Virus record (IMG/VR): IMGVR_UViG_3300036791_000056
Location: 1 to 28,881 of that record
Reading direction: 5' to 3' (one strand)
Length of the DNA stretch: 28,881 nucleotides
From: a virus
Under the pieces are notes generated by a model. It was given only the letters and a program-made list of their open reading frames with translations, was not told the origin of the DNA and did not search any database. This document shows positions 24,938-28,738 of the stretch, one piece after another. Position 1 is the stretch's first letter, and every line of letters begins with the position of its first letter. The position numbers and the translations under genes are program-made.

Positions 24938-24970
24938 GGAGCCCGGGCAGGCCATCCCGGGCTCCGTTTT
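24938..24970 (+). terminator. Rho-independent terminator of the moron
   Basis: A perfect 10-bp stem GGAGCCCGGG/CCCGGGCTCC with an 8-base loop (CAGGCCAT) is followed by GTTTT on the plus strand, about 50 bases after the RHH stop. It ends at the stop of the convergent large terminase gene. On the minus strand no T-run follows, so late transcripts may pass through. Confidence 0.85.
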
Positions 24971-26631
24971 CACGCGACGATGAGATCGGGATCTTCTGCG
25001 GCGGGTTGCGACGTGTCGATCATCGCGAGCTTGCGCGCCATCAGCGTGGCGATCACGGGGTCGATGCGGCCGCGACTGTGTTTCTTCGTCGGGTAGATGT
25101 TGTCCTTGTTGTCGCTCTGCACGCGGACGTTGGTGATCGCCCACGTCAGCAACTCATTCCCGCCGCCGTCGACGAGCCCGTCGAGCACGTCAGCCTCGAA
25201 CTCTTTCGCGGGCGCGCTCATTTGCGCGAGCGTTTGCGGAATCTCGGCGACGCGATAGCCGTCGTCGGTGAGGTGCTTCACGAGATTCCCTGCGTTCCAC
25301 GGGTCGATGCCGATGTGCTGCACGTCATAGCGCGCGGCGACGGTCCGCACCATCTCGCGCACGACGTCCTGATCGATGCGGTTGCCGGGGTTCGTCAGCA
25401 GATAGCCGCGCTCGACCCACAACCGATACGGTGCACGGTCGCGGTGCGCGCGCTCGTCGAGCGTATCCTCGGGCGTGAGCCCCCAGACGAGCACGCGCCA
25501 CGCGCGCCGCGCGTCATGCGGGGGAAAGACCGCTGCGACGGCCGTCAGGTCGATTTTGCTCGACAGGTCAATGCCGACCCAACACGGTTCGCCGTCGAGC
25601 GTCTCGGGCGCCCACGTGGTCTGCGCGCGCCGCCAGCCCTCGAGCGACAGCCACGGCGCTATCGCATTCACCCAGAGATTCAGGCGTTTCTGTTTGAACG
25701 CGGGCGCCGCGCCCGGCAGCGCCGCCGCTTTGTGCGCCAGCGCGCGAATGTCGTCGGGCTTGACGCTGACGCCGTAACCGGGGTTGGCTTTTTTCCACGT
25801 GCGCTCGACGAACGGATCGTCGTCGTCGTCGGCGTGCGCGATAAACGCGAAGCACGTATCGTCGACGAGCACGCCGTCGAGCACCTGACACGCGTAGTGA
25901 TGCTGGTCGCCGCACGGCGTGAGCGGGTCCGATCCGGCGGTCGTGATCCAGAAGATCAACGGCTGACGGCGCGCGCCCGTCGCCGTTTCCATGACGTCGA
26001 TCATGCCGCGATTTTTCATCGCGTGCGCTTCATCGATGATCACGATCTGCGGGTTGAGCCCGTCGGTCGAATCGCTGTCCGCGCCGAGCGGTTCGAGCTT
26101 CGATGCGATGCGGTCGTAATTCAGGTTGCCCGTGAGCACGGCGATCCGCGAGCGCAGGCCCGACTGCACCACGAGCCGTTTGCAGTCGGCGAACACGATC
26201 TTGGCTTGCGCGCGCTTCGTCGCGATCACGAACCCTTCGGCGCCGGGCTCCCCATCGAAAAACGTGACGTACAGCGCGACGACGGCCGCGATCAGACTCT
26301 TCCCGTTCTTGCGGGGAATCTCGCCATAGACGGTGCGGAAGCGACGGAGCCCCGTCTCGACGTGCGTCCACGCGAACATCGATCCGAGCCAGAAGCGTTG
26401 ATACGGCTGGAGCGCGATGCGCTGCCCCGCCCATTCGCCTTTGTAGTGGCGCAGTTGTTCCGCGAACCGAAAGAACCGCTCCGCGCGCGCGTAGTCGAAG
26501 CGGTACGGGAATTTTTTCGTGTGCTCGCGCTGTCGGTCGCGGAGATGGCGTTCGCACGCGAGCCGGTGATACTTGCCTGCGAGCACCTTGCCTGCGACGA
26601 CGCGCCGCGCGTACTCGTCCAGCGCGTTCAA
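24970..26631 (-). CDS. terL: terminase large subunit
   Basis: The start is the TTG at 26631, which overlaps the small-subunit stop as TTGA and has GAGG 7 bases upstream; this gives 553 residues, a normal length, and the conserved opening LDEYARRVVAG. The longer frame to 26955 reads through the small-subunit gene. Motifs visible are the Walker A region YGEIPRKNGKS (about residues 102-112), Walker B plus catalytic Glu IVIIDEAH (196-203), and the nuclease-domain acids in WVGIDLSSKIDLTAVAAVF, HIGIDPWNAGN and GRIDPVIATLMA. It is the packaging motor ATPase and headful or cos cutting nuclease acting at the portal. Confidence 0.97.
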   Translation of the reverse strand: MNALDEYARRVVAGKVLAGKYHRLACERHLRDRQREHTKKFPYRFDYARAERFFRFAEQLRHYKGEWAGQRIALQPYQRFWLGSMFAWTHVETGLRRFRTVYGEIPRKNGKSLIAAVVALYVTFFDGEPGAEGFVIATKRAQAKIVFADCKRLVVQSGLRSRIAVLTGNLNYDRIASKLEPLGADSDSTDGLNPQIVIIDEAHAMKNRGMIDVMETATGARRQPLIFWITTAGSDPLTPCGDQHHYACQVLDGVLVDDTCFAFIAHADDDDDPFVERTWKKANPGYGVSVKPDDIRALAHKAAALPGAAPAFKQKRLNLWVNAIAPWLSLEGWRRAQTTWAPETLDGEPCWVGIDLSSKIDLTAVAAVFPPHDARRAWRVLVWGLTPEDTLDERAHRDRAPYRLWVERGYLLTNPGNRIDQDVVREMVRTVAARYDVQHIGIDPWNAGNLVKHLTDDGYRVAEIPQTLAQMSAPAKEFEADVLDGLVDGGGNELLTWAITNVRVQSDNKDNIYPTKKHSRGRIDPVIATLMARKLAMIDTSQPAAEDPDLIVA

Positions 26632-27116
26632 TGCACGTCCTCGAATTCCGCGAACGCGTCGACGCCGCCGCCCGTCGTCGAGTACGGCAACGTCTGCACG
26701 CGCACGCGACTCGACGGCGTGAGCCCGAGCTCGGCCCAGAGTTTCAGGCAATTCCCGAGGGCCTTGTTCGCGATGCCGATGTAGGGGTTCGGCATCGGAT
26801 AGCCGCTCGGGGAGCGCACAACCATCCCGCCCGCTGCGATCTTGCTCGTCGCGCCGAGATAGCGCGCCCACTGCTGACAGAGCGCGACGAGTGCCGCCCA
26901 ATCCGCATCGGTGAGCACGCGCGCGCCGCGCAAGATCGGCGCGAGTCGGTGCCACTCCGCGACCGCGACGGCATCGCCGACGAGCTCGCGCGGGGGCGTC
27001 TCGAACACCGACGCCGTCGCCGCGATCTCGGGCTCGTGCGCGTTGAGCGGCCGCTGGCCGGGGTTGCCCTCGAGCTTTTTACGCGCCGTCGGTTTCGGTT
27101 TCGGGCCGCGCTGCAT
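26628..27116 (-). CDS. terS: terminase small subunit (P27 family)
   Basis: The 162-residue protein opens MQRGPKPKPTARKKLEGNPGQR, the conserved N-terminus of P27-type small terminases, with PLNAHEPEI following. The centre has WHRLAPILRGARVLTDADWAALVALCQQWARYL, a helical region, and ANKALGNCLKLWAELGLTPSSRVRV near the C-terminus, which is also conserved. It binds packaging initiation sequences and loads the large subunit. It overlaps the glycosyltransferase gene by 38 bases and the large subunit by four. No obvious ribosome-binding site precedes it (AAAAAACCCC only). Confidence 0.93.
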   Translation of the reverse strand: MQRGPKPKPTARKKLEGNPGQRPLNAHEPEIAATASVFETPPRELVGDAVAVAEWHRLAPILRGARVLTDADWAALVALCQQWARYLGATSKIAAGGMVVRSPSGYPMPNPYIGIANKALGNCLKLWAELGLTPSSRVRVQTLPYSTTGGGVDAFAEFEDVH

Positions 27117-27981
27117 GGGGTTTTTTGATCAACGTCATGCCGTAATCGTCGACGCCCGCGCGCAGCGCGACGTCGGGCCGCAGGACGAGTTTGTTGTTCG
27201 CGAACCGGCGATAGTCGACGGAGTGATGCGGCCGTCCGAACTTCCACACGAGCCGCGAGCAGTCGGGGTGCAGCCGCACCTGCATCTCGGATTTCGGAAT
27301 CGTGCCCTCGTGCTCGTAAAAATCTGCCGTGCAGCCGCCCTTGACGGTCTGCGTCGAGACTTTGCCTTGGAGAAACGCGTTGAATTCAATCGTGCAATAG
27401 CCCGCCTTGAGCATCCGCAGCGACAAGTCGGTGTCCTCGTTGTATCGCCCGCGCCACCGAAACGGCATGTCGTTCCGAATGAGATTGCACGAGTAGATCC
27501 GCGTATTCATGATCACGGGTCGCAGCGCGACGGCCGCTTTCGTCATGAAATCGTACGCCGGTCCCGCCATCGCGACGGTGAGATACCGCAGACAGAAATC
27601 CTCCATGCACCGGAACAGCGTGCCGTCCGTTACGAGCAGTTTTCGATTGCGATGCAGCCGATAGAATTCTTGGATGTTGTCGTCCATCACCCAATGCCAC
27701 GCGGCGCCGCGCGCGAGCGCATCCGCCCACGCCGCGTTGCGCGCCGCGCCCGGCCCCTGACTCTTCGCCGCACCGACGTGGTCGCACGTGTCGTACTCGG
27801 CGTGGAAGCGCGGATCGAGCGCGAGCACCTTCGCTGGATCGATCACGGCCGCGTACGCGTCGACCTCGTATGGCTCGACGATGATGCGGAACGGGACGCC
27901 GAGCGCGTCGAGCGCCCGCGCGGTCATGCGCGTATCGGCGCGCCCTTTCGAGACGATGTAGACGGGGAATTGCGGGTTCAT
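27079..27981 (-). CDS. TET-associated-type glycosyltransferase (phage DNA hypermodification)
   Basis: The 300-residue enzyme starts at the ATG overlapping the zinc-ribbon stop as ATGA; the frame to 28173 runs through two upstream genes and is rejected. It has a GT-A fold order: strand PVYIVSKGRADT at 6-17, helix, FRIIVEPYE at 31-39, then GPGAARNAAW at 77-86, and HWVMDDNI (DDN at 100-102) as the metal-binding DxD-like motif, with the catalytic-loop acids in YNEDTDLSLRM (180-190). This pattern matches the TET/JBP-associated glycosyltransferases found in phages that glycosylate 5-hydroxymethylcytosine in DNA. It lies with a ParB-like gene and terminases. The dioxygenase that would make its substrate is not in the window. 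A teichoic or sugar-nucleotide transferase is possible but less likely. Confidence 0.82.
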   Translation of the reverse strand: MNPQFPVYIVSKGRADTRMTARALDALGVPFRIIVEPYEVDAYAAVIDPAKVLALDPRFHAEYDTCDHVGAAKSQGPGAARNAAWADALARGAAWHWVMDDNIQEFYRLHRNRKLLVTDGTLFRCMEDFCLRYLTVAMAGPAYDFMTKAAVALRPVIMNTRIYSCNLIRNDMPFRWRGRYNEDTDLSLRMLKAGYCTIEFNAFLQGKVSTQTVKGGCTADFYEHEGTIPKSEMQVRLHPDCSRLVWKFGRPHHSVDYRRFANNKLVLRPDVALRAGVDDYGMTLIKKPHAARPETETDGA

Positions 27982-28100
27982 CGGTCGGCGTCGTGCGCGA
28001 GAGCTTTCGACGTGCTGCACTTCGCGCAGAAGTACCAGAACCAGCGATTCCACGTGTGGCAGTACTTGCACCGCCATTCTGTGCGAAGCGTCGTCGTCAT
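27978..28100 (-). CDS. 40-residue zinc-ribbon protein
   Basis: A short reading frame fits exactly between the ParB-like gene and the glycosyltransferase, overlapping each by four bases (ATGA at both ends). The product has two CxxC knuckles, Cys11/Cys14 (CKYC) and Cys25/Cys28 (CAKC), around an aromatic core (WNRWFWYF), the pattern of a minimal zinc ribbon. Such a small protein might bind DNA or a partner enzyme. The twin overlaps strongly support its reality. The downstream tail is basic then acidic (SKALAHDADR). No function can be assigned, but a role in the DNA-modification cassette is the natural inference. Confidence 0.78.
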   Translation of the reverse strand: MTTTLRTEWRCKYCHTWNRWFWYFCAKCSTSKALAHDADR

Positions 28101-28738
28101 CGGGGCGCCTCATCGGCGGTGCCCGCGAACACGACGTCGGTCGGCTCGCGCGCGGGTTTCGGGAACCAGACATAGCGCGTCTTATCGGTGAGCGTTTGCT
28201 CTAGCAACGCCGCGAACGCGTCGACGTCGGCTTGCGTGCGGAAGTGAACTTTGATCGTGCGGTACGCCTCCTGATCCTCCTGCGTGAACTCGGGCATCCC
28301 CGCCCAATCCGGCTTCACGCCCTCCCCGAGCAGCATCGCCTCTTCCGCTTCGGTCCAGAACGGGCGGAGATCGAGGCCCGCCTCGCGATCTTCGCCGAGC
28401 GCGACCACGTCCCACGTCGCGAGCTCGGCCGCGCGATTGTCTGCAAGGGAGAGTTGCCGCTTCTGTTCGTCAGTCAACCCGCGACGCCGCACGGCGATCA
28501 GTTCGTCGCCGCTCGCTTCGATGATGCGAACGCGCTCAATCCCGACCTGACTCGCGCTCTCGACGACGCCGTTCCCCGCGAGCACGACGTCGGACTCGTC
28601 GAGCACAATCGACCGCGCCGCCCCGACCGCGCGGAGCGACTCGACGATGACGTCGAGATTGCGGGGCGTGCGCTGACGCCGGTTGTTGGGGTCGGGCACG
28701 AGCGCGGCCAGCGGTTTCGTGATGTCTTTCGGTGCCAT
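28097..28738 (-). CDS. ParB-fold (ParB/Srx-like) protein
   Basis: The 213-residue product has GAGG before its ATG. Residues 1-75 match the ParB nuclease/CTPase fold: LAALVPDPNNRRQRTPRNLDVI, ESLRAVGAARSIVLDESDVVLAGNGVVESASQVGIERVRII. The arginine of the partition-type GERR motif is replaced (GNGVVES), as in many phage ParB-domain proteins. A LTDEQKRQLSLADNRAAELATWD segment follows, then a C-terminal domain with TIKVHFRTQADVDAFAALLEQ and TRYVWFPKP. No KorB-like parS-binding helix-turn-helix is seen. Proteins of this kind lie next to terminases and DNA-modification genes in several phages; substrate unknown. Confidence 0.88.
   Translation of the reverse strand: MAPKDITKPLAALVPDPNNRRQRTPRNLDVIVESLRAVGAARSIVLDESDVVLAGNGVVESASQVGIERVRIIEASGDELIAVRRRGLTDEQKRQLSLADNRAAELATWDVVALGEDREAGLDLRPFWTEAEEAMLLGEGVKPDWAGMPEFTQEDQEAYRTIKVHFRTQADVDAFAALLEQTLTDKTRYVWFPKPAREPTDVVFAGTADEAPR

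Follow-up and report, generated by a model that had tools for sequence, protein, structure and literature searches.

A TAGT glycosyltransferase paired with a partner domain of ParB-like proteins: a candidate DNA glycosylation module of phages

The sole characterised member of the TAGT family (Pfam PF20691) is the beta-glucosyl-HMC-alpha-glucosyltransferase of phages T6 and T2, a phage-encoded enzyme with a GT-A fold (modelled for T6 in PMC13216743), and the relevant passages of two papers describe the T6 enzyme as glycosylating DNA (PMC13216743, PMC13390438). Its gene lies directly beside gene 42, which encodes the hmC synthase, and has neither the partner domain nor the ParB-like protein considered below. 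The family and its solitary members are already known: of the 753 phages in which PMC13216743 found homologues of T-even-type glucosyltransferases, 288 have a TAGT homologue without alpha-GT or beta-GT, and the glucosyl transferase of Aeromonas phage Aeh1 is another such case, entered in a published table as presumably DNA-modifying, with the base given as unknown (PMC8056088, table). The passages of these two papers that deal with solitary TAGTs do not describe a partner domain, a link to ParB or synteny with terminase genes, and no description of these three features was found in the searchable literature, whose coverage lacks Iyer 2013 and Burke 2021.

Two other systems invite comparison. 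In phage ParB-DNA methyltransferase fusions (PHROG 498, PADLOC MTase_II), a homologous ParB domain is tied to a DNA-modifying enzyme, while the module analysed here has a glycosyltransferase as its catalytic component, connected via an extra domain. TET/JBP-associated systems, reportedly treated by Iyer and colleagues in 2013, share the glycosyltransferase family with the module, and differ from it by the TET/JBP enzyme itself.

Gene order and protein families at the contig end

The window, that is the whole stretch of DNA analysed, is the entire IMG/VR record IMGVR_UViG_3300036791_000056 (28,881 bases), and its head genes are of the HK97 type. A large serine recombinase with Resolvase, Recombinase and zinc beta ribbon Pfam domains is encoded on the plus strand (89-2488), so that the phage is probably temperate; about 230 residues precede the resolvase domain of this protein, and its start may be over-extended. 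A promoter scan and a search for plasmid matches found none. At the right end of the contig, on the minus strand, the order of transcription is a ParB-like gene (28097..28738, the contig ending 143 bases upstream of it), a 40-codon ORF with a C-x2-C-x10-C-x2-C zinc ribbon (27978..28100), a glycosyltransferase gene (27079..27981), and the genes for the small and large terminase subunits, TerS and TerL. The first three are coupled by two ATGA overlaps, one at each end of the zinc-ribbon ORF. TerS (26628..27116, minus strand; Pfam Terminase_4, E 1.4e-24) overlaps the 3' end of the glycosyltransferase gene by 38 nt, and TerL comes next (24970..26955, minus strand; TerL_nuclease, E 2e-46; TerL_ATPase, E 6e-34), its listed start lying probably too far upstream.

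The glycosyltransferase (300 aa) matches PF20691 over the full profile (positions 1-205 of 205; E 5.1e-32, 111.9 bits for a cut-off of 27.5), and PHROG 842 (E 2.1e-43), a family whose annotation is beta-glucosyl-HMC-alpha-glucosyltransferase. Its GT-A fold is seen in the model of a fused TAGT homologue (pLDDT 92, pTM 0.90), whose best structural neighbours in the PDB are GT-A transferases, for example KfiA and GnT I, at modest TM-scores of about 0.3-0.5, and whose neighbours in BFVD include annotated TAGT proteins, up to TMt 0.90; by sequence, a search of the PDB gave no match for either the glycosyltransferase or the ParB-like protein. Among 35 aligned relatives, the DDN motif (WVMDDN; residues 100-102, 27676..27684, minus strand), a candidate metal/nucleotide-sugar site, is invariant, as are N181, E182 and D183 of the NEDTD motif (RYNEDTD; residues 181-185, 27427..27441, minus strand), with T184 present in at least 90% of them. 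The nearest relative, L002, has a TAGT 95% identical to that of the window, and dN/dS values in this comparison (0.07 for the glycosyltransferase, 0.15 for the ParB-like protein) indicate purifying selection on both.

The ParB-like protein (213 aa) consists of an N-terminal ParB/sulfiredoxin-fold domain and the C-terminal partner domain. It matches PHROG 620 (E 8.8e-21) and the ParB-methyltransferase family PHROG 498 (E 5e-16), the PADLOC MTase_II profile matches its ParB part, and Foldseek comparison of its AlphaFold model (pLDDT 88) gave ParB/Noc structures as best matches (from E 6.6e-4), and also sulfiredoxin. At the place of the nucleotide-binding GxRR-type motif, most ParBs of the module read GHGR, and the window and its close relatives GNGV, so that the nucleotide site may be altered in this subclade.

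Much of the preliminary description of this stretch is upheld by these results. The gene order that it gave (glycosyltransferase, zinc ribbon and ParB-fold protein with ATGA overlaps, terminases downstream) is confirmed from the sequence together with the Pfam and PHROG matches; the GT-A-type, TAGT-like enzyme with DDN and NEDTD motifs is borne out by PF20691, PHROG 842, motif conservation and the structure comparison that it had proposed, the homologue model resembling TAGT proteins in BFVD; and the ParB-fold identity agrees with the PHROG families and the ParB/sulfiredoxin fold match.

A partner domain linked to TAGT, and a variable slot between them

In many loci the match to the ParB profile covers only the C-terminal third of that profile, and the partner of TAGT is therefore the C-terminal domain of ParB. 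This domain of about 60 residues (about residues 143-205 of the window ParB; 28124..28312, minus strand) was delimited from alignments and has the short consensus W-x-x-MPEF ... KT-x-x-W-x-P (in full, E-W-x-G-M-P-E-F-x-Q ... R-x-I-x-V-H-F ... D-V-x-x-F-A-x-L-x-G-Q-x-x-T-x-K-T-K-x-I-W-x-P). It matched no Pfam or NCBIfam family, and PHROG 22103, of unknown function, gave weak matches. Relatives were gathered from viral contigs (57), from 562 stretches scanned with a fused relative as query (80 kept), and from bacterial genome contigs, where an alignment query gave 35 relatives and a single-protein query none.

Among 133 evaluable loci (distinct, with at least 450 nt upstream of TAGT), 131 have the partner domain at TAGT. 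In 89, a ParB carrying the domain lies just upstream; 26 have a small domain-only ORF, nine a domain-TAGT fusion, one a triple ParB-domain-TAGT fusion (L169) and six the domain within 3 kb, leaving two loci without it. The domain profile was built from the first set of TAGT relatives, and linkage was also examined independently of TAGT by a codon scan for W-x-G-M-P-E-F: it returned 80 loci, 79 of them with the domain, and TAGT adjoins the domain in 76 of these 79. Two of the three remaining domains lie at a sequence edge. In the third (L247:628-1383, minus strand, and just upstream), an FkbM methyltransferase (E 2e-18) takes the place of TAGT behind the partner domain, which suggests that the domain can serve modifying enzymes other than TAGT. 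The conserved unit is the pair formed by TAGT and the partner domain, not the three-gene cassette that had been reported.

Isolated Aeromonas, Vibrio, Tenacibaculum and Pectobacterium phages carry the domain fused to TAGT or just upstream of it (phiAS5, Aeh1, 65, Kuja and 1.076.O are among the phages with the module), the arrangement in Aeromonas phages Aeh1 and 65 being a domain-TAGT fusion. The module is also present in cultured hosts, namely Rhodovulum euryhalinum DSM 4868, Xenophilus sp. E41, and Chryseobacterium and Acidobacteriaceae strains. Variants of the arrangement were observed: in L029:8478-10004, ParB and partner domain extend into a C-terminal region of about 320 aa, which resembles a DXD-type sugar transferase only very weakly (Pfam Gly_transf_sug, E 0.056), and TAGT follows. 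Tandem TAGT copies occur in L074:3728-6413, L083, L095, L027, L052, L056, L057 and Vibrio phage Kuja, each copy having its own partner domain in L074 and Kuja; such tandem enzymes may assemble a disaccharide or act on two acceptors.

The zinc ribbon had been seen as part of the cassette. Its ATGA-coupled ORF does exist in the window, without a confident Pfam family match, but it is not conserved in relatives, the real partner being the C-terminal domain of ParB. L002 has a different, unrelated ORF at this place (L002:787-1083), for which a MazG-like identity suspected by eye has no Pfam support; the gap between domain and TAGT is at most 60 nt in 102 of 120 loci, leaving no space for a ribbon gene; and L113 alone among these 120 loci has a double-CxxC ORF in that interval, within a 1.6 kb insert. 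The zinc ribbon is thus rejected as a core part of the module. The interval between ParB and TAGT appears as a variable insertion slot that holds another gene in each phage: the zinc ribbon in the window, an FkbM methyltransferase in L004-L006 (L004:746-1450), or a radical SAM protein (L091:1801-2733). The window recalls the com-mom operon of phage Mu in having a short zinc-ribbon ORF that overlaps the start of a modification gene, and departs from it in the enzyme and in the lack of conservation of the ribbon. Translational control of the Com type is unsupported, since the coupling of ribbon and enzyme is not conserved across loci.

Of 114 loci, at least 51 have a large terminase gene no more than 3.5 kb downstream. 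Nine different terminase seeds detected these genes, so the module has been placed repeatedly before unrelated packaging genes. In Vibrio phage 1.076.O the module is near portal and head morphogenesis genes, and in other phages it is found among replication or adenine-methylase genes. Several neighbourhoods have additional genes. For example, in prophages of Pantoea stewartii CCUG 26359 (L148:7196-9256) and Erwinia sp. OLFS4 (L149), ParB-domain-TAGT and terminase are immediately preceded by genes for a GT9-like glycosyltransferase, an MptE-like protein and a methyltransferase, possibly an extended sugar cluster. A small cytidylyltransferase-like gene (L112:991-1410; CTP_transf_like, E 1e-17) is found close to the module in a total of nine contigs, and a close relative of the window (L003:1461-7455) has about 3 kb of extra sequence between TerS and TerL.

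Search for hydroxyl-making and base-modifying enzymes

TET/JBP (PF12851) was found in none of the 87 module-bearing records and genomes searched (50 records, then 37 further records and host genomes). The positive control, phage Nigel, which we take to be a TET/JBP carrier, was detected with this profile at E 4e-8, below the Pfam cut-off yet clear, and a search for TAGT in Nigel gave no match. Cytosine-C5 methyltransferases (PF00145) are present in 8 of 81 records (4/50 and 4/31), N6_N4_Mtase (PF01555) in 7 of 50, and 2OG-FeII_Oxy_3 (PF13640) in none of 50. Of 47 large metagenomic contigs, 2 have an enzyme of the ThyA/hmC-synthase type (PF00303), and phage 65 has one copy; in the T6 control, this search detected thymidylate synthase as well as another ThyA-family gene, which adjoins TAGT and is presumably gene 42. 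Whole-record searches thus reject all five (TET/JBP, C5-methyltransferase, ThyA/hmC synthase, 2OG-FeII_Oxy_3 and N4/N6-methyltransferase) as obligate partners of the module. Many of the contigs are fragments, so that any one absence says little, but the joint result, from dozens of contigs measuring 30-177 kb, is strong. Cytosine C5 is unproven as the modified position, given that TET/JBP is absent from the relatives and that C5-methyltransferases and hmC-synthase-type enzymes are rare among them.

These results can be set beside the survey of Petrov et al. 2010, where Aeh1 and 65 are not among the listed carriers of gene 42 (hmC synthase), and where type II enzymes unable to cut modified T4 DNA are noted to cut the DNA of some T4 relatives that lack the hmC network (PMC2993671). 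Because such relatives are cut, any DNA modification could also be sparse or absent.

Acceptor of the sugar and meaning for phages

On balance, the module is probably a self-contained unit of TAGT and partner domain that is recruited by ParB and attaches sugar to phage DNA at about the time of packaging. The ParB/sulfiredoxin domain, a homologue of the one fused to phage DNA methyltransferases, would guide the complex to the phage genome; the partner domain, seen adjacent or fused to TAGT, would bind it; and TAGT would move a sugar from a host nucleotide-sugar to phage DNA during genome making and packaging, with no dependence on a phage TET/JBP dioxygenase or an hmC-type nucleotide pathway. 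Genomes glycosylated in this way would be protected from restriction. Phage DNA is the likeliest acceptor because of the ParB partner and the terminase context. We infer the DNA target from context and homology only, since no hydroxyl-bearing acceptor base has been identified and the usual sources are absent. The late glycosylation of DNA before packaging that was first proposed for this locus is retained in part: TAGT, ParB and the terminase context favour DNA, while the route through TET and C5 is unsupported.

The main rival is that TAGT transfers its sugar to a phage protein (capsid, portal, terminase, or ParB with its partner domain), which the domain would present or recognise as acceptor. 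Mycobacteriophage-encoded glycosyltransferases that modify virion proteins are known, the genes of the module often adjoin packaging and head genes, and the record searches found no source of a hydroxylated base; glycosylation of the capsid is suggested in the part of PMC11256854 bearing on this point. The ParB partner, in contrast, points to DNA, as does the only family member characterised so far, and the terminases next to the module are of many unrelated types, with replication or adenine-methylase genes taking their place elsewhere. Protein glycosylation is accordingly unlikely, and it keeps a real share of probability because the acceptor hydroxyl is unaccounted for and the T6 TAGT is very distant, the profile of module TAGTs failing to detect it. 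If DNA is the acceptor, as favoured here, the complex of domain and TAGT could also act directly on a canonical, unhydroxylated base (e.g., on an exocyclic amino group), around packaging, the partner domain serving as a new adaptor between ParB and the enzyme; this form of the module seems improbable.

It is a little less probable still that TAGT performs a second-step transfer as in T6, onto a sugar or base placed earlier by other phage or host enzymes encoded by unrecognised genes. T6 TAGT adds a second glucose, according to the relevant part of PMC13216743, and compatible accessories exist: FkbM between ParB and TAGT in L004-L006 or after the domain in L247, the GT9-like enzyme and methyltransferase that precede the module in the prophages of Pantoea and Erwinia, and the tandem TAGTs of several loci. 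However, sugar-type accessories occur in a minority of loci, domain and TAGT being nearly always paired without them, and neighbourhood clustering revealed no recurrent first-step enzyme. Finally, the model of the preliminary description, in which cytosine C5 is methylated, oxidised by TET/JBP and glycosylated by TAGT, the first two genes lying beyond the contig, can draw on the naming of the Pfam family after its TET association and on the window being a fragment that stops 143 bases upstream of ParB, yet it is very improbable and its missing genes unsupported, as TET/JBP was found in none of the 87 module-bearing records and genomes although the positive control worked, C5-methyltransferases are scarce in module-bearing relatives, and Nigel combines a TET/JBP match with no TAGT.

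A near-obligate partner domain, in most cases carried by a ParB-like protein and often encoded just upstream of terminase, is the genetic signature by which solitary TAGTs, or a large part of them, can be defined, and this class occurs in the absence of the two known hydroxyl sources. Isolated phages and cultured lysogens carry the module, so the modified nucleoside, or its absence, is directly measurable. If DNA is the target, the module would represent a widespread counter-defence chemistry of phages.
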